A DNA stretch of 64,000 nucleotides from Capsulimonas corticalis. GTDB lineage: Bacteria; Armatimonadota; Armatimonadia; Armatimonadales; Capsulimonadaceae. Below, piece after piece: positions 17,947 through 25,537 of this stretch. Both the position numbers and the translations under genes were made by a program. The number at the start of each line of letters is the position of its first letter. Within the stretch, counting starts at the first letter, position 1. The stretch is from NCBI RefSeq assembly GCF_003574315.2, contig NZ_AP025739.1, positions 3,224,001 to 3,288,000 of the forward strand. The letters run 5' to 3'. The notes under the pieces are model-generated. The model had not been told where the DNA came from. It made no database searches and was given only the letters and a program-made list of their open reading frames with translations.

Positions 17947-19479
17947 TCAATCGAGCTGCCGCTGAAGCGCCATCAGGGCGAAGCCGAGCAGCGCGACGCC
18001 GGCGAGCAGGGTGAAGGCGTCGAGACACGACAGCAGGAGGATCTGTCGTTCCAGCGCCTTCCCCATCAGCGCAAGCGCGGCGGCGTGCGCGTCGGCCGCC
18101 CCCAATCCATGCGCGATCAGCCCGTGACTGAGCGTCGAGATGCGCTGAGACACCGCCGCGCTGGAGGGATCGGCGTCGCCCGCCAGATCGAACCGATGGA
18201 CTGCCGCGCGGTGGTGGAGCATGACGGTCATCGCCGCCACCGCGAAGGTCTGGCACAATTGCCGAATGATATTCTTCAAACGGTATGCGTGGCTGTAAAA
18301 GTCCAGTTCAAACTCTTTGAACGCCAGGCCCGCGACGGGAAGCACGAGCATCGCCGCGAACAGGCTGCGCAGGAAGAGGGGGAGATAAAGACCGGACGCC
18401 GCGATCTGTGTCGAAAGACGCGACAGCATCCAGAAAGCCGCCGCCATGCTGAGCATGCCCGCGCACATAAGCAACTTGCGGCGGCGCAGGCGGCTGCTGA
18501 CGCCCAAATACACCATGACGCCCGCCATGGAGACGACGCCGGAAAAGAACAGCAGGCGGCCCATGAAGTCCACCGAATACAAAAGGACCTGCTCGCAAAA
18601 CACGGGAAACAGATACGAGAACGCGTAGGCGAGCAAATAGTAGATAAAGTAAAAGAGCAGCCCCCAGAGAAACTGCTTGTTGCGCAGGCCGGTCAGATGC
18701 AGGATTGGATCGGGGACGCGCAGCTGGTGGGTGACGAAGCCGACGATCGCCAGGATCGCGACCGCCAGCAGAAGCAGCAGATGCGGGGACTGCGTCAGAA
18801 ACTGGAATCGCACTCGCTGCATCACGATCTCCACGGAGACGATGCTGACGGCGAAGAGGGCGATCGGCCAGTAGTCGTAACGCACGCGGCGCTCGATCTG
18901 CTGCTCCGCCTTTTCGGCGCTCTCCGGCTCGGGGACCGTGAACCATACCAGCAGCGCGCAGGCGAGGATGATCGGGACGATGATCCAGAAGATCCAGTTC
19001 CACGTGCTCGCGTCGATCAAGCGCGTCGCGAGCAGCGGCGCTAGCGTCGATCCTCCGAATACCCCCGCCATAAAGAAGCGCAGCGCCTTGACGCGCTCTG
19101 GGCCGAGAAACGTAAATTGGATCAGGATGCGGCAGGAGGTGAACAGAGCGCCCGCCCCGGCGCCCTGGACAACGCGCCAGGCAATCAAGGTAATGACGGA
19201 ATGGGCGAAGCCGCAGCCGAGGCTCGCGGCGGCGTAAACGATCAGGGAAGCGGTGAGGTAGCGCCGGTATCCAAAGTGCTCCGTCAGATTTTGCTGAAGC
19301 AGAATCATCAGGATCGCGGCGGTGGCGTAGGCGGCCGTGACCCAGACAAACTCTTCCGGAGTCGCGCCGACGCCGCCCTGGACGTGCGCCGACGAGAGCA
19401 CGAGCATGGAGTTCTCCAGGAACTCAACGCCGGTCGTCAGACCCAGAGTGAGCATTAACAAGATACGTTTGGACAGCAA
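17947..19479 (-). CDS. DHA2-type MFS transporter, candidate lasso peptide exporter
   Basis: 510 aa with about 14 hydrophobic helices, the size and layout of DHA2 drug:H+ antiporters (EmrB/QacA type). The N-terminal half shows WVTAAYATAAILMILLQQNLTEHFGYRRYL (motif A region) and VVQGAGAGALFTSCRIL (motif C-like). It is the last gene of the lasso operon, 18 bases after the GNAT gene. Lasso clusters more often use an ABC exporter; no ABC transporter is present here, so this protein is the natural candidate for export or immunity, by context only. Confidence 0.85.
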   Translation of the reverse strand: MLSKRILLMLTLGLTTGVEFLENSMLVLSSAHVQGGVGATPEEFVWVTAAYATAAILMILLQQNLTEHFGYRRYLTASLIVYAAASLGCGFAHSVITLIAWRVVQGAGAGALFTSCRILIQFTFLGPERVKALRFFMAGVFGGSTLAPLLATRLIDASTWNWIFWIIVPIILACALLVWFTVPEPESAEKAEQQIERRVRYDYWPIALFAVSIVSVEIVMQRVRFQFLTQSPHLLLLLAVAILAIVGFVTHQLRVPDPILHLTGLRNKQFLWGLLFYFIYYLLAYAFSYLFPVFCEQVLLYSVDFMGRLLFFSGVVSMAGVMVYLGVSSRLRRRKLLMCAGMLSMAAAFWMLSRLSTQIAASGLYLPLFLRSLFAAMLVLPVAGLAFKEFELDFYSHAYRLKNIIRQLCQTFAVAAMTVMLHHRAAVHRFDLAGDADPSSAAVSQRISTLSHGLIAHGLGAADAHAAALALMGKALERQILLLSCLDAFTLLAGVALLGFALMALQRQLD

Positions 19480-19497
19480 CGATGAGTTTTGCGCGTT

Positions 19498-20064
19498 TCA
19501 GGACGGCGCCAGCCGCTTTCGCATCCGTACAACCGGAAGCGTCAGGCCGTCCCGCATCGGGATTTCGAACCGCTCCGATTCGTGATACCCAAAAACTGCG
19601 TACAAAGGCTCGCCCGCGAGGGTGGCGACGATCTCGACGTCCCGGAAACCCGCCTGAAGGATCGCATCCTCGCAGGCCGACATAATCCGGCGTCCGATGC
19701 CGCGCCGGGCGAACTCCGGATGCACAAAGAAAGCTCGGACGCGCGCCGAGTCGCGAGTGGGGTCGAGCAGGGAATCGTCGTCGGGGTTCCTGCCGTCATC
19801 GCCGCCGAAGAGCGTCTTGCGCCGGCTCCATCCGCCGCATCCCACGATCCGCCCGGCTGCCTCCACGACAAAATAAGTCCCATCGGCAATCAACTGGCGG
19901 TCGACGCCGAAGATCGGCCCAAGCGCCGCCTCGATCTGTATGGGCGTATAATAGTCCGCCTGAAGCGCATGCGCGGAAAGAGGGATCAGCTCCGCGAGCG
20001 CGTCTGCATCGCCGAGGCGCGCGAGCCGAAGCGTTAGGGCAGGAAGCTTGGGATCGTCATTCAT
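19498..20064 (-). CDS. GNAT N-acetyltransferase in the lasso operon
   Basis: 188 aa with a complete GNAT fold: VVEAAGRIVGCGGW (beta-4), VRAFFVHPEFARRGIGRRIMSACED (motif A, acetyl-CoA pyrophosphate loop RRGIGR) and LYAVFGYHESERFEIP. It overlaps the nucleotidyltransferase stop by eight bases and precedes the MFS gene by 18, so it is in the lasso operon. It may acetylate the peptide (as tailoring or self-protection), or may be an unrelated passenger. The 17-residue core predicted here has no lysine, so any modification of it would have to be on a hydroxyl or on another substrate. Confidence 0.85.
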   Translation of the reverse strand: MNDDPKLPALTLRLARLGDADALAELIPLSAHALQADYYTPIQIEAALGPIFGVDRQLIADGTYFVVEAAGRIVGCGGWSRRKTLFGGDDGRNPDDDSLLDPTRDSARVRAFFVHPEFARRGIGRRIMSACEDAILQAGFRDVEIVATLAGEPLYAVFGYHESERFEIPMRDGLTLPVVRMRKRLAPS

Positions 20065-21268
20065 CGTTTAGTATCACTTGGGCGCTCTGTCGGTGAAACA
20101 ATGTGTGCAGCATGGAGGCGGCGTAGGTCTTTACAATGCGCAGTGGACGCGAAACGCCATAGAGCGGCCTTGGCAGGCGCATTGTCTCCACATCGGCTAG
20201 GGTGGGAGTGGTGAGCGCGAACCAGCAGTAGACACATCGCTCCCGCATCTTGTGGGCGCGAAGATTATAGAAAAACAGCTCGCCGACTTCCGGCTGCTTT
20301 TCCTCCACACATACGCGCCGACGAGCCTCCTCCGCCAGCGCATGCGCCACACGGTCGCGGCGCGCCATGGGCGCTAGCGCTTCAGGAATAGGGACTCCCG
20401 TCAGCGCTTCCGCGAGCAAAAGACCGACGAACACGATTCGCTCATTGCCGGAGTCGCGCGCGCGGGATGCGACAACCTCCCAATCTTCAACCATTGAGCC
20501 GCGCGCCATCGCGGACACCGCGCAGATCCACTCTAGACGCTCCCAAAGGTGTTTTACCCCATGCACGCAAAGATAGAGAAACTGATCTTCTGGACTGAGA
20601 GTGCGGACGGAGGATCCGGCGAGAGGAATGGGAGTCGCTCGGCCAATGATGTCCCGCACCTGCTTCTCGGATTGAAAACAAGGGTTGGTAAGCCGGTGGT
20701 GCAGCTCAACCCGGACGCCGGTTGCCGCCGAAGCGAAACAGAAGTTGTGGTAGGATCGCATGTGGATGTCGCTATCTGCCTCAGAGCCGCAGAATTCGTC
20801 CACATAACCGAGGCCGCGCAATACACGGGCGGCCCGTTCGATCTCGTCCGGAGACGTCAGCAGATCTAAATCGCCGAAACACCGCAATGCAATGCTGTCG
20901 TAGAGAGACTGCGCCAGCGCCGGTCCTTTGATCGCGACCGCCATTACCCCCTCGGCTTCCATCGCTTTCGCGATCCGAAGAAGCTCGGCCGTCATGTGCA
21001 GACTATGACGCCCTGCGCCGTGTGAGAGCTGAGCCAGACGCGCGATCACATCGGCGGGAACGCGTGCTGGCTGCGTTTCGCAAAGATGCTTGTGGAGAAG
21101 CGGAACAAGACCATGCTTCATCGCGAGCGAAACCGTGGAGGGCCAGTCGACAGGAGCGTCCAGCAGGCGCGCGAGACGCGTCTGCGCGGCGGCGTCCAAA
21201 TGAACTCGGCCGCAAACGGTGAGCAGTTCTCGTTCACGAAAAGCGGAGTTAAGTGGCGCAGACGTCAT
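20057..21268 (-). CDS. Lasso-cluster nucleotidyltransferase family protein
   Basis: 403 aa of the NTP_transf_5-like family found in many lasso peptide and other RiPP clusters. Diagnostic region near residues 110-150: VMAVAIKGPALAQSLYDSIALRCFGDLDLL, with the metal-binding DLDLL and following ERAARVLRGLGY. In kinase-containing lasso clusters such enzymes are thought to add further phosphate or nucleotide groups to the phosphorylated peptide. It overlaps the B2 peptidase by 20 bases upstream and the GNAT by eight downstream. The C-terminal LFFYNLRAHKMRERCVYCW segment has a Cys pair. Confidence 0.88.
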   Translation of the reverse strand: MTSAPLNSAFRERELLTVCGRVHLDAAAQTRLARLLDAPVDWPSTVSLAMKHGLVPLLHKHLCETQPARVPADVIARLAQLSHGAGRHSLHMTAELLRIAKAMEAEGVMAVAIKGPALAQSLYDSIALRCFGDLDLLTSPDEIERAARVLRGLGYVDEFCGSEADSDIHMRSYHNFCFASAATGVRVELHHRLTNPCFQSEKQVRDIIGRATPIPLAGSSVRTLSPEDQFLYLCVHGVKHLWERLEWICAVSAMARGSMVEDWEVVASRARDSGNERIVFVGLLLAEALTGVPIPEALAPMARRDRVAHALAEEARRRVCVEEKQPEVGELFFYNLRAHKMRERCVYCWFALTTPTLADVETMRLPRPLYGVSRPLRIVKTYAASMLHTLFHRQSAQVILNDE

Positions 21269-21728
21269 TCTCGACCTTCATCAATAGCTGAAAACTTCCC
21301 GGTCCGGCAGAGGTCATGCAGCGTCCATCCGGCGTTTCCACCCAGGCGTGCGCGAGAAACTCGCCATTCTCGGCTTTCGCCACGCCGATTTTGAGGGACG
21401 CTGGGTTTCCGAGTCTTTTGATAAGGACAAATGTCGCCAGCGACTGAGTTAGGCACGTCGCGGCAGGCACATACCGCGCCATGGATCCAACCGCGCGCGC
21501 GCAGACCAGGCAATCACGGTTACTGGCCGCCGAAGCGTTGCGTGCTGGATGGACGCGACGCTCGATCCATCGGAGCACCCATGGGAACGGCGCCGTCCAA
21601 AGAGCGATCCGAATGACAGCCAGGAGCGCTAGGGCGCGCAGATAGACGCCTTGATCCCGTATGCTCAGCGATCGCCACTTCGCGCCGTGGCGACGAAGTA
21701 TGGCGAGGCGATTAGTACGAAGCGTCAT
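21249..21728 (-). CDS. Lasso peptide leader peptidase (B2 protein)
   Basis: 159 aa, transglutaminase-like cysteine protease that removes the leader peptide. The catalytic Cys is in VPAATCLTQSLA, His in FLAHAWVE, followed by TPDGRCM with the candidate Asp. An N-terminal helix-rich segment (ALALLAVIRIALWTAPF) precedes the domain, as usual. ATG 21728 (MTLRTNRLAIL) is chosen: the frame is open to 21848, but the extra 40 residues lie across the B1 gene and look non-coding. Overlaps the B1 stop by 17 bases and the nucleotidyltransferase start by 20. Confidence 0.92.
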   Translation of the reverse strand: MTLRTNRLAILRRHGAKWRSLSIRDQGVYLRALALLAVIRIALWTAPFPWVLRWIERRVHPARNASAASNRDCLVCARAVGSMARYVPAATCLTQSLATFVLIKRLGNPASLKIGVAKAENGEFLAHAWVETPDGRCMTSAGPGSFQLLMKVENDVCAT

Positions 21729-21999
21729 GGGTGATGACCACCAGATCGTGCCGCTCCAGATCCGCCAGCAGCACCGCGAGATCCGCCTGCGCTCGCTCCG
21801 GTTCGACATCGTACTCGCCGATAATATTTTGCCGCAGATCGCTGACATGGATTGGGTTTTGAACCCACTCCCAGATGCGCGCGCCGATTGGATTGAGGCC
21901 GTAATACGTGCTGTTCTTCAAATTGAGGATTGCCATGTCGCCCTGCAAATCGCAGGAGACCTGTTCTTTGCTTGCGGTGATAGTGGCGTTGTCGTCCAT
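21712..21999 (-). CDS. Lasso peptide RRE protein (B1, PqqD-like)
   Basis: 95-aa winged-helix RiPP recognition element that binds the precursor leader and delivers it to the B2 peptidase. PqqD/B1 pattern: MAILNLKNSTYYGLNPIGARIWEWVQNP, then LRQNIIGEYDVEPERAQADLAVLLADLERHDLV. ATG 21999 is preferred (GGGAG five bases upstream); an ATG at 22014 overlapping the kinase stop is also possible. It sits between the kinase and B2 genes. Confidence 0.93.
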   Translation of the reverse strand: MDDNATITASKEQVSCDLQGDMAILNLKNSTYYGLNPIGARIWEWVQNPIHVSDLRQNIIGEYDVEPERAQADLAVLLADLERHDLVVITHDASY

Positions 22000-22010
22000 A
22001 GATGCTCCCT

Positions 22011-22955
22011 TCATCGAACTATTCCAGCGTTTGCTTCCCCGCAGTCGCTTTCGACGAGCGCCGCGACCTCATGCAGCGCCTGGAAATCCAGCGGCCGCTT
22101 CAGACGCCGAATGTGCGCCTCAGCGGTTAGAGCGGCGCATTGACGCATATGCGTCGTCTTATTCTCCTGCGATACCAGCATCCCCACCGCATAAGTATGC
22201 CGGATGATCTCCACGACCGCATGTTGACGTTCCAGACATTCGATCTCAGGCCAGTCGCCTTGCGCGAGGATATAAATGCGTTCCAATCTTAAAGAACTGC
22301 GGCCCGCGCCTTCCGCGACGGGGAAGCCGTACTTCGGATGTGTGGCGTGTACTTTATTCAGCTGGGCTGTATTATGTCCCAGAGCGGCGGCGGAATCGGG
22401 AGTGAGTTTTAGTCGCGGAAAGCCGGACTGGACGGTCGGCCGCGCCGGATCGGCGAGGCAGACCGCCACGATATCGTCGGCGACCACTGTATGTCCGCGC
22501 GCTTGCAGCGCGGCGGTCATTGTGGATTTTCCGGCGCCGGCGGCGCCTAAAAAGGCGACGACGCTTCCATTCACAACTGCCGCGCTCGCGTGCAATGTCA
22601 GGAAACCCCGTTGATGCAGCAGAGCGCCCAGAGCAACGCCGAGAACAAAAAGACGCAGGACGCTATTATCGACGCCGGACTCTCCCTCCACTAAGATTTC
22701 TCGGCCGCCACGGATACAAATTCGGCACGCTCCTTCGAAAGAAAGCCACACGGCGTCGCCATACATCCAGTGCCCCTCGCGGATATCGCTGGCGTTGCTG
22801 GGAATCGCAGGAAGACTTTCTACTCGAATTGCTACATCAGCCGTTTCAAACTCTGCCGACGAGAGAGGAGTAAGTTCCGGCAAAGGCAGCGTCGAGTCGA
22901 TTGTGAGGCCGTAGGCGACATATCGATATCGTGTGGCTGGAAGAGCGAGAATCAT
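22011..22955 (-). CDS. HprK-like kinase, predicted lasso peptide tailoring kinase
   Basis: 314 aa. HPr-kinase/phosphorylase-like C-terminal domain: TLHASAAVVNGSVVAFL leads into the P-loop GAAGAGKST at residues 137-145, followed by VVADDIVAV (metal-binding acidic pair) and SGFPRLKLTPDS. The N-terminal about 120 residues form the usual accessory beta domain (YVAYGLTIDSTLPLPEL). Relatives in lasso clusters (paeninodin type) phosphorylate the C-terminal Ser of the peptide. Here the predicted core ends in Ile just before Ser56 of the precursor, so the acceptor is not obvious (core Ser44 or Ser51, or Ser56 if processing differs). It starts 16 bases after the precursor stop. Confidence 0.9.
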   Translation of the reverse strand: MILALPATRYRYVAYGLTIDSTLPLPELTPLSSAEFETADVAIRVESLPAIPSNASDIREGHWMYGDAVWLSFEGACRICIRGGREILVEGESGVDNSVLRLFVLGVALGALLHQRGFLTLHASAAVVNGSVVAFLGAAGAGKSTMTAALQARGHTVVADDIVAVCLADPARPTVQSGFPRLKLTPDSAAALGHNTAQLNKVHATHPKYGFPVAEGAGRSSLRLERIYILAQGDWPEIECLERQHAVVEIIRHTYAVGMLVSQENKTTHMRQCAALTAEAHIRRLKRPLDFQALHEVAALVESDCGEANAGIVR

Positions 22956-22971
22956 CGATAGCGCCTCATGA

Positions 22972-23451
22972 TCACTGGATCATCTTCCGCTTCAGCATGT
23001 CAATCTCTCGGCGCAGTTCGCCGATTTGTTCGTCACGCTGCTGCACCAGATCGTAAAGCGCCTGGATCGCCGCGATCGTCACTCCGTTCGCGTCGACCAT
23101 ATTGATATGCTTATCGTTTTCGCCGACACCGAACGCCGCCGCGAAGTCCTGGGCCATCGGGCCGATATGACGGATCGCGGGGTTTTGGAAGTGATAGCTC
23201 CACGACGCCACGGGGATAGAAACCAGACGCGCCAGAACATCGTGTGCGTCAACAGTCGCGAAGTCCTGCTTCATGGATCGGTCGCTAATGATGACTTGAC
23301 TTCCAATAATTCCATCGCCAGAGTTTGGTCCAATAAATTCAGTGATATTGGCAATGGTTCCATGGACGGTCAGCTCCGGCGTTTCGTACGCCTTCTTCGC
23401 GGGTTCCTGATCCTCAGCGCGGCTCGTGAAATCTTGCGGGGTGTCGGTCAT
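22972..23451 (-). CDS. Lasso-type precursor fused to a peptidase S74 chaperone domain
   Basis: 159 aa in three parts. Residues 1-38: lasso-family leader with KKAYETPELTVHG, matching Y22-x2-P25-x-L27-x3-G31-x5-T37 at every position. Residues 39-55: candidate core. If Thr is at -2 as usual, the core begins at F39, and D46, its only acidic residue, is at position 8, suitable for an 8-membered macrolactam ring. Residues 56-159: full-length peptidase S74 (endosialidase-type intramolecular chaperone) domain, with SDRSMK (Ser56 and Lys61, five apart as in the S911/K916 dyad of phage endosialidase), IRHIGPMAQDFAAAFG, GVTIAAIQALYDLV and a C-terminal coiled-coil helix. S74 domains trimerise and self-cleave just before the Ser. 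AAAGGAG precedes the ATG. It lies between cyclase and kinase genes. The lasso assignment rests on leader plus neighbours; maturation is inferred. Confidence 0.88.
   Translation of the reverse strand: MTDTPQDFTSRAEDQEPAKKAYETPELTVHGTIANITEFIGPNSGDGIIGSQVIISDRSMKQDFATVDAHDVLARLVSIPVASWSYHFQNPAIRHIGPMAQDFAAAFGVGENDKHINMVDANGVTIAAIQALYDLVQQRDEQIGELRREIDMLKRKMIQ
23287..23337 (-). other. Predicted lasso core peptide region
   Basis: Codons 39-55 of the precursor, FIGPNSGDGIIGSQVII. Start set by Thr at -2 (T37), end set by the S74 cleavage point before Ser56. The ring would be Phe1 amine to Asp8 side chain, with a nine-residue tail containing no large plug other than Gln/Val/Ile. Seventeen residues is a normal lasso length. 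All three boundaries (leader cut, ring residue, S74 cut) are predictions. Confidence 0.6.
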
Positions 23452-23553
23452 TTGTTTTCTCCTTTAGCGAACGCGGATGATTTTTTGAGGAACAGCACTG
23501 TCATGGTTCCATGAAATGTCGTGAAAATTAAAAATATTTAATTTGATATGGGT
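23452..23553 (-). promoter_or_regulatory. AT-rich gap upstream of the lasso precursor with a dyad
   Basis: The only sizeable gap inside the lasso operon (102 bp), and far more AT-rich than its surroundings. It holds an AT-only stretch around 23527-23545 (aaaattaaaaatatttaatt) and a ggaac-N12-gttcc dyad at 23489-23510. An internal promoter or operator raising precursor expression over the enzymes is plausible; nothing diagnostic is seen. Confidence 0.4.
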
Positions 23554-25440
23554 TTACGTCATCTTTTGCAGCCATAGGGCAAGAAGAGACGCCTTGAGCG
23601 GAAGCTCGGCGTCCTCCCACGACGGCTGAATCGCGAAGCGATCCAAGCTGGAGCGAATGGAACTCATGTTGACGTATTGCGAAAGCGAATTTCCGTCGCT
23701 TGCTAACATCGCTTCGATACGCTGTATATCGAAAGCCGCGAAAGTATGAAGGAAGTTATGTCCCAAATCGGATTTTCCGCCCCTCCATTGAATTTGTTCG
23801 GGTAAGACGCCCGTCATTGCCTTTCGCATGATCCAGCGCGTCCAACCATCGCGAAGTTTTTGATCCGGCGGGACTCCCAGACAGAATTCCACCAGCCGGC
23901 GATCGAAAAACGGATAGCGTACTTCGAGAGAGAAGGCGGCGGACGCATGGTCGGTGATCTCCAGCACATGCGGAACAATCCCCCTCGACATTCGGTAGTG
24001 ATGACTTTCTTTTTCCGTGAGGCAGGGGCGCCGGCCAACGCCCAGCAGCACGTTCGACCGCTCATGAAAACGAGTGCGAGTTTGAAAGTCAGCGTTCAAA
24101 CAGGCCGAAAGGACGCTGGCGGGCGGCTGTCGCCGACGGGCGGCTTTCCATACGCCGAGCATGGCTTTGGGGACGAATGGGTAAACCGCCTGGGTCGCAA
24201 TGAGAGTTCGAGTGGAGCCGTTGAGATTGCGCGCCACCCCCTTCGCCTCCCTCAGCAGGGTCGGCCAGCGCATTGCGCGCGCGAGTTCGGTCAGGCGGGA
24301 GACGCCGTGAGAGACTGTTGTATCGCCGTCAAGACCGTCGAGAAGCACGCCGACCCCAGCCGTTTTCGCGGCTGCGTACATTGCCCAGTGCAAAAATAGA
24401 TTGGGACCAGTAAAAGGCTGGTCTTGAGCGCTGAGCATCTGGTCGATATTTGAAAAAGGGCCGATCCGGTCTCCATGGACTTTGTGCGGCTCCATGCCTC
24501 CCATATCCAGAGCCGCACGCATATAGTCGCGTTCATCGGACTTAGGCACGTCGTCAAAAACGACGGAAAATGTCTGGAGGGGCTCCCGCCCATCCTTTTG
24601 CAGGTATTGTGAGGCGGCGCAGGCGATGGACGACGAATCGAGGCCGCCGCTGAGCGTGGAGCCAAGCGGAGTATTTGCGCGGGATCGGGAATGGACTGCT
24701 TGGAGGAAGATGGAGCGAAATGCTTCGGCGTACTCGGCGTCTGATGATAGCCGGATGTCCTGAGCGGCTTCCACGGACCAGTAGGGCTGCATCGAGATCT
24801 CGCCGTCACGCACCATCATGCTGTGCGCTGGCGGCAGCTTGAAAATCCGCTGATAGAACGTATGCTGCAAATCTTCCGCGTAACCCGCCAGATACTCTAA
24901 GACGCGGTCTTCATTGACGAGGCGCTGCGCCTCCGGCATTGCCAGCAGGCCCTTAATCTCCGAGGCGAATAGGAAAAGATCGTGATGTTTGTAATAGTAA
25001 AATGGCCGAACGCCAAAGTGATCTCTGGCGCAGAATAATGTCTTGTCGCTTCGGTCCCAGATAGCAAACGCGAAATCTCCGAGAAGCTTCTCAGGGCATT
25101 GTGGTCCCCACTTTTCATAGGAGGCAAGGATGATCTGGCCGTCGGTAATTGGATCTGGGGATCGCTGGGGAATTTGCAGACGCGCGATGAGTTCGTCTCG
25201 GTTGTCCAGTCGGGCGTCGGCGGTCATTACTCGGTCGTTCGCGGCGTCACGAAGGGGCGCCTGCTCGAAGTGCGATTCGCGCGTCGTTCTCAGAAGACTG
25301 CTTCCGAATGCGGCTGAGCCGTCCACCCAGCAGTTAACAGGGCTCGAGCCGCGATGCGCAAGCGCCTCCATCATTTGCTCAAGCCCATGCGGCGGAGCCG
25401 GTCGATCGTCTGCAAGCAAAATACCCGCAATAGCGCTCAA
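23554..25440 (-). CDS. Lasso cyclase (asparagine synthetase-like, C protein)
   Basis: 628 aa. Asparagine synthetase B-like: an N-terminal glutaminase-like domain (about 1-210, MSAIAGILLADDRP, HRGSSPVNCW, DGQIILASYEKWG, LLGDFAFAIWD, RDHFGVRPFYY) and a C-terminal ATP-pyrophosphatase domain with the PP-loop SGGLDSSS near 265-272. Start is TTG 25438-25440 with GGAGAG eight bases upstream. This gives M-S-A-I-A-G, so the catalytic Cys2 of true glutaminases is replaced by Ser, as in lasso cyclases, which adenylate the ring Asp/Glu instead of making Asn. First gene of the lasso operon, 102 bp before the precursor. Confidence 0.92.
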   Translation of the reverse strand: MSAIAGILLADDRPAPPHGLEQMMEALAHRGSSPVNCWVDGSAAFGSSLLRTTRESHFEQAPLRDAANDRVMTADARLDNRDELIARLQIPQRSPDPITDGQIILASYEKWGPQCPEKLLGDFAFAIWDRSDKTLFCARDHFGVRPFYYYKHHDLFLFASEIKGLLAMPEAQRLVNEDRVLEYLAGYAEDLQHTFYQRIFKLPPAHSMMVRDGEISMQPYWSVEAAQDIRLSSDAEYAEAFRSIFLQAVHSRSRANTPLGSTLSGGLDSSSIACAASQYLQKDGREPLQTFSVVFDDVPKSDERDYMRAALDMGGMEPHKVHGDRIGPFSNIDQMLSAQDQPFTGPNLFLHWAMYAAAKTAGVGVLLDGLDGDTTVSHGVSRLTELARAMRWPTLLREAKGVARNLNGSTRTLIATQAVYPFVPKAMLGVWKAARRRQPPASVLSACLNADFQTRTRFHERSNVLLGVGRRPCLTEKESHHYRMSRGIVPHVLEITDHASAAFSLEVRYPFFDRRLVEFCLGVPPDQKLRDGWTRWIMRKAMTGVLPEQIQWRGGKSDLGHNFLHTFAAFDIQRIEAMLASDGNSLSQYVNMSSIRSSLDRFAIQPSWEDAELPLKASLLALWLQKMT

Positions 25441-25537
25441 ATCTGATGCTCTCCAAACGATTACTGGGCAGACTTCGACTGTAAAGCGAAGTCTACCCAG
25501 CAAATGGCTCTTCGAAGCATGACAAAATTTTTGGCGG

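Follow-up and report, generated by a model that had tools for sequence, protein, structure and literature searches.

Organization of the Lasso Peptide Operon

The window, a 64,000-nucleotide stretch of the Capsulimonas corticalis genome (a single contig of about 7.65 Mb; among its sequenced family relatives is an Armatimonadetes MAG), contains an eight-gene lasso peptide operon at positions 17947–25440. Profile searches of the window place all eight genes on the minus strand in the order C-A-K-B1-B2-NTF-GNAT-MFS, and the hallmark components of a lasso cluster, namely the PqqD/RRE protein B1, the transglutaminase-like protease B2, and the AsnB-like cyclase C, are all present (Table 1). The gene order, the leading position of the cyclase, and the division of B1 and B2 into two genes agree with the initial annotation, as does the tight packing of the genes everywhere except before A. 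The gap between C and A is 102 bp, compared with at most 18 bp elsewhere (16 bp between A and K, 18 bp between GNAT and MFS), and the remaining neighbors overlap by 4 bp (K/B1), 17 bp (B1/B2), 20 bp (B2/NTF), and 8 bp (NTF/GNAT). The overlap of B1 and B2 reflects a B2 start at 21728, which is the most likely one. Translation of the cyclase begins at a TTG codon at 25440 with GGAGAG upstream, and the ribosome binding site of A is AAAGGAG. An inverted repeat that occurs once in the window is located 23 bp upstream of the cyclase start and is a possible operator or RNA hairpin. No ABC transporter is encoded within the operon (17947–25440). The absence of such an exporter had been noted previously and is confirmed here. 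The accompanying proposals, that the MFS protein replaces it and that the cluster holds three tailoring enzymes, are interpretations rather than observations.

Table 1. Features of the lasso peptide operon and of precursor A.
Feature	Position	Strand	Evidence
14-bp inverted repeat CTGGGTAGACTTCG-N9-CGAAGTCTGCCCAG, one mismatch, 9-bp spacer	25464..25500	.	Sequence
Lasso cyclase C (AsnB-like)	23554..25440	-	NF033535 749 bits, E=4.8e-225; Asn_synthase
Precursor A, 159 aa	22972..23451	-	NF033528 lasso_cyano E=1.6e-7 (aa 19-44); PF13884 E=2.3e-9 (aa 56-107)
Leader of A, aa 1-38 (KKAYETPELTVHG...ITE; Thr at -2)	23338..23451	-	Alignment with relatives' precursors; motif rules (PMC10368454)
Predicted core of A, aa 39-55, FIGPNSGDGIIGSQVII, ring F1-D8	23287..23337	-	T(-2) rule; Asp at position 8, aligned in relatives
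S74/ICA domain of A, aa 56-159, catalytic Ser56/Lys61, C-terminal helix 118-158	22975..23286	-	Conserved dyad, AF2, fold match
HPr-kinase-like lasso kinase K	22011..22955	-	P-loop GxxGxGKS, Asp160-Asp161
B1, PqqD-type RiPP recognition protein	21712..22014	-	PF05402, NF033536; 52% to L050
B2, transglutaminase-like leader protease	21249..21728	-	NF033537 76.8 bits; Cys92, His127 in alignment
Nucleotidyltransferase-like NTF, PsmN-like role	20057..21268	-	NTP_transf_5, PF14907 E=2e-60; GDLD motif kept, D133/D135 invariant
GNAT acetyltransferase	19498..20064	-	PF13508
DHA2-like MFS transporter, TTG start, candidate exporter	17947..19479	-	PF07690; TIGR00711 below cut-off

The Leader and Predicted Core of Precursor A

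Most lasso precursors are short peptides made up of a leader and a core. Precursor A joins a lasso leader and predicted core to a C-terminal Peptidase_S74 domain, and this fusion, the most unusual feature of the operon, was absent from the initial annotation. Residues 1–44 match the lasso leader profiles NF033528 and NF033521, and precursor A is the only protein in its own genome that scores above the cut-off for NF033528. A chance open reading frame was considered and rejected based on two independent profile matches in one continuous frame, and an assembly chimera was rejected based on the single contig, the open frame, and the distances of 102 and 16 bp to the neighboring genes.

The leader contains the lasso motif YxxPxL as YETPEL and a Thr at the −2 position (Thr37), which places the start of the core at Phe39 and makes Asp46 core residue 8, within the range of positions 7–9 expected for the ring-forming Asp or Glu. 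Application of the Thr(−2) rule also gives an Asp at residue 8 or 9 in precursors from four related clusters (L050, L051, L052, and L053), while the second L050 precursor and the L176 precursor show no clean fit to the Thr(−2)/Asp rule. This second L050 precursor is found in an Anaerolineae cluster that carries a second cyclase and precursor just upstream (L050:1-849 and 1022-1189), and its core (TCNVKTFGLYD...) lacks an Asp or Glu at positions 7–9. The first core residue is Phe in A as opposed to Gly or Ala in most relatives, which counts against the mechanism proposed below. Since the nucleophile of the S74 domain is Ser56, cleavage there would leave the 17-residue core FIGPNSGDGIIGSQVII, for which the calculated [M+H]+ of the predicted lasso is 1668.90. 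The GC3 of the core-coding segment (23287–23337) is 0.24 versus 0.68–0.75 in the leader and S74 segments on either side, which fits a foreign or fast-changing core. A pattern scan of the window for a second, hidden precursor found none.

The S74/ICA Domain

The C-terminal part of A matches Peptidase_S74 (chaperone of endosialidase, PF13884) with 37.8 bits (cut-off 22), and A is the only protein above this cut-off in its own genome. Both Ser56 and Lys61 are invariant in an alignment of 28 cellular homologs (28/28), and among 56 phage homologs Lys61 is found in all and Ser56 in 54. Precursor A matches 16/16 of the columns that are at least 85% conserved in the 56 phage S74 domains, with part of the conservation at 95–102 and 108 owed to the search patterns by which the phage loci were retrieved; at the strongly conserved columns that are not fixed by these patterns, A matches 9/9. 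Overall, A carries the phage majority residue at 41/93 positions (44%).

An AF2 model of the monomer (57 sequences) predicts residues 61–159 with pLDDT values of 93–98, and the leader and core are disordered. Re-alignment ranks four ICA domains at the top of the structural matches (7dc3, 3gw6, 4uw8, and 3gud). The best of these is a moderate match to the crystal structure of the MyRF ICA domain (7dc3; Z 7.4, rmsd 2.2, 98 aa), and the next structure unrelated to ICA domains has a Z of 2.9. Alignment of model residues 55–152 on residues 586–705 of the 7dc3 chain places Ile55-Ser56 on the scissile P586-S587 bond, which MyRF cuts using S587 and K592 with the assistance of Y615 and Y617. Trp84 and Tyr86 in A sit at +28 and +30 from Ser56, the same spacing as Y615 and Y617 from S587. 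A sequence search of the PDB gave no S74 match. Cleavage by the MyRF ICA domain needs the Ser/Lys pair and trimerization, mainly through the C-terminal helix, and proceeds autonomously in E. coli (PMC8326128, PMC3742443).

Two differences from known ICA domains count against or qualify this comparison. The endoNF domain uses an upstream Arg (R897) with no evident counterpart in A, which weighs against self-cleavage; mutating the MyRF residue at the equivalent place does not stop cleavage. Additionally, phage and cellular S74 homologs usually sit C-terminal to a long fiber, stalk, or β-helix region, whereas the upstream part of A is a disordered leader-core of 55 residues.

Distribution and Related Clusters

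No S74-lasso fusion was found in 291 Armatimonadota genomes or in 400 Chloroflexota genomes, such that the fusion is known from one genome among the Armatimonadota and Chloroflexota searched. The other S74 matches in those genomes begin at approximately residue 50 of A, most of them within long open frames. Scanning viral contigs with A alone gave no match, and scanning them with an S74 alignment gave 80 loci, with a lasso leader in 0/60 of those checked. Plasmid tblastn matches cover the S74 part only and are mostly in tail-fiber-like proteins. Several plasmid matches from Rhodococcus and Streptomyces (H6, H7, H8, H12, and H14) begin past the catalytic Ser/Lys, and these may be S74 domains that lack the cleavage pair. 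No relevant report of a lasso peptide with an S74 domain or with a fused or follower-type precursor, or of one connected with endosialidases, tail fibers, or Armatimonadota, was found in the open-licence literature.

A scan of genome contigs with the cyclase as a single query gave no match, and a scan with a B1 alignment gave four loci. Eight related cyclase loci were examined (L050–L053 and L176–L179). The closest cyclases found are from Chloroflexota (44–46% identity) as opposed to Armatimonadota (33–35%). Precursors in the related clusters are ordinary, with lengths of 54–96 aa and most ending in Ser; a pattern search found none in L178. An ABC transporter is present in 7/8 clusters (L050–L053 and L176–L178) with none matched in L179, and the window operon lacks the ABC exporter that characterizes paeninodin-type clusters. 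The nucleotidyltransferase is found in 5/8 clusters (L050, L052, L053, L177, and L178), which share the set of split B1/B2, C, K, and nucleotidyltransferase. In L051, a cytochrome P450-reductase fusion with a P450-flavodoxin-FAD-NAD layout (L051:14669-17860) lies between the kinase and the ABC transporter and is a possible lasso oxidation enzyme.

Accessory Enzymes

The kinase contains the hallmarks of paeninodin-type kinases, an HPr-kinase-like P-loop (Gly137–Ser144) and an Asp-Asp pair (Asp160/Asp161) that is invariant in the alignment. In paeninodin and pseudomycoidin biosynthesis the kinase acts on a C-terminal Ser, and PsmN adds a hexose to the phosphate (PMC9266682). Such a Ser is missing from A, which ends in ...KRKMIQ and has a predicted core ending at Ile55. 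BsfK, whose precursor is also without a C-terminal Ser, phosphorylates Ser3 of the ring (PMC10368454). By analogy, with the usual C-terminal Ser gone, K would, if active, most likely act on Ser6 of the ring (Ser44), and NTF may act on the phosphate placed by K. The kinase and nucleotidyltransferase are standard partners of the paeninodin/pseudomycoidin type.

The GNAT is probably neither a tailoring enzyme nor specific to lasso biosynthesis. The expectation that it would stay with the cluster is contradicted by the two closest relatives within the order (in G023 and G016, with 56% and 49% identity), which lie near non-lasso genes; neither of these genomes gave a lasso cyclase match at E 1e-30. 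Albusnodin is acetylated at Lys10 (PMC9266682), whereas FIGPNSGDGIIGSQVII contains no Lys, and with the N-terminus used in the ring the core offers no amine to the GNAT. No relatives of the MFS protein above 30% identity were found in the order. The GC3 values of C, K, and NTF are 0.60–0.65 as compared to 0.75 for GNAT, 0.83 for MFS, and 0.77 ± 0.06 for 31 ORFs outside the operon, such that the codon composition of GNAT and MFS is host-like and unlike that of the lasso genes. This contrast is suggestive, and only suggestive, of acquired lasso genes to which host-derived GNAT and MFS genes were joined.

Proposed Mechanism and Alternatives

A three-part lasso precursor whose S74 domain trimerizes and cuts before Ser56 is the best explanation for these features and, in our judgment, a reasonably probable one. 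As the fused domain is of a known self-cutting, trimer-forming kind, A probably removes its own tail to free the peptide. In this mechanism, the leader (residues 1–38) would be bound by B1 and cut by B2, and C would form the macrolactam between Phe1 and Asp8 of the core (residues 39–55). The C-terminal helix of A would drive formation of an S74 trimer, and the assembled Ser56/Lys61 site would then cut the Ile55-Ser56 bond, freeing either the leader-core or an already formed lasso. Cleavage may come before or after threading, since lasso enzymes accept engineered C-terminal protein fusions. In this way, the C-terminus of the peptide would be set at Ile55 with no need for an external protease. 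The small freed peptide would be exported, perhaps via the MFS protein, through which the 11.7-kDa folded domain could hardly pass. The more general proposal, that a trimerizing, self-cleaving chaperone of the phage-tail type sets the C-terminus of a RiPP and serves as a natural self-removing follower domain that couples assembly to release (or threading), seems to us about evenly balanced.

The single occurrence of the fusion is compatible with an evolutionary accident, in which recombination with an S74 fragment deprived an acquired precursor of its original tail and stop codon, and either host proteases trim the remainder or no lasso is made. The foreign codon composition of C, K, and NTF next to a host-like S74 part (GC3 0.75) and the loss of two features of the relatives, the C-terminal Ser and the ABC exporter, point the same way. 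We regard this account as unlikely, as the 9/9 conserved S74 positions outside of the search patterns are intact, as are the reading frame, the ribosome binding site, and all of the biosynthetic enzymes. Alternatively, the S74 domain may be kept as a permanent trimerizing anchor with little or late self-cleavage. In that case, B2 and C would process the N-terminal end of the fusion to give a trimeric lasso protein, whose coiled-coil base bears three lassos at the N-termini. GFP or a leucine zipper at the C-terminus is tolerated by lasso enzymes, and ICA domains trimerize strongly through the C-terminal helix, which is present in the model of A. Nevertheless, the fully retained dyad and Trp84/Tyr86 would be needless in a non-cleaving anchor, and the sole transporter of the operon is an MFS protein unsuited to a folded protein, making an anchor unlikely.

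The initial annotation envisaged three tailoring enzymes acting on the core (kinase, nucleotidyltransferase, and GNAT) and a heavily modified lasso exported by the MFS protein. The tight operon, the intact active-site motifs of the kinase and NTF, and the known pairing of a kinase with PsmN to yield phosphorylated and hexosylated products (PMC9266682) agree with part of this model. As a whole it is weakly supported and highly improbable: the core has no Lys, its N-terminus is taken up by the ring, it lacks a C-terminal Ser, and relatives of the GNAT are unlinked to lasso genes.

To our knowledge, little attention has been paid to how the C-terminus of a lasso core is fixed or protected. If the self-cleaving precursor proposed above is correct, an autoprotease within the precursor itself would provide a means of fixing this end, and lasso biosynthesis would join phage fibers and the human transcription factor MYRF as the third context of the ICA domain. 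It would also provide a natural model for lasso-protein fusions. Long lasso precursors of this kind may be discarded by length filters in genome searches.

Comparison with Known Systems

The ICA domains of endoNF, T5 LTF, GA-1 gp12, and MyRF share with A the Ser-x4-Lys dyad, the fold, the C-terminal trimerizing helix, and the position of the cleavage site. In contrast, the region upstream of the domain in A is a RiPP leader and core rather than a fiber, a β-helix stalk, or a DNA-binding domain. Engineered C-terminal fusions of astexin-1 to GFP and to a leucine zipper are described as still being lassoed (Zong 2016, in PMC7549694; PMC13352647), and in these accounts they resemble A in that a lasso core is followed by a folded or coiled-coil protein. 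Unlike these constructs, A is natural and carries a self-cleaving domain. The BsfK pathway of Bradymonas sediminis (PMC10368454) is similar in pairing a kinase with a precursor that lacks a C-terminal Ser; it differs in having Ile where A has Thr(−2), and no S74 domain is reported in BsfA. The closest resemblance in gene content is to the paeninodin/pseudomycoidin-type clusters (PadeK, PsmK, PsmN), with which the window operon shares split B1/B2, C, an HPr-kinase-like K, and a nucleotidyltransferase, and from which it is set apart by the missing ABC exporter, by a precursor that lacks a C-terminal Ser, and by the S74 fusion. The operon is a known kind of lasso cluster with one new element, the precursor-S74 fusion, which is absent from all relatives searched.
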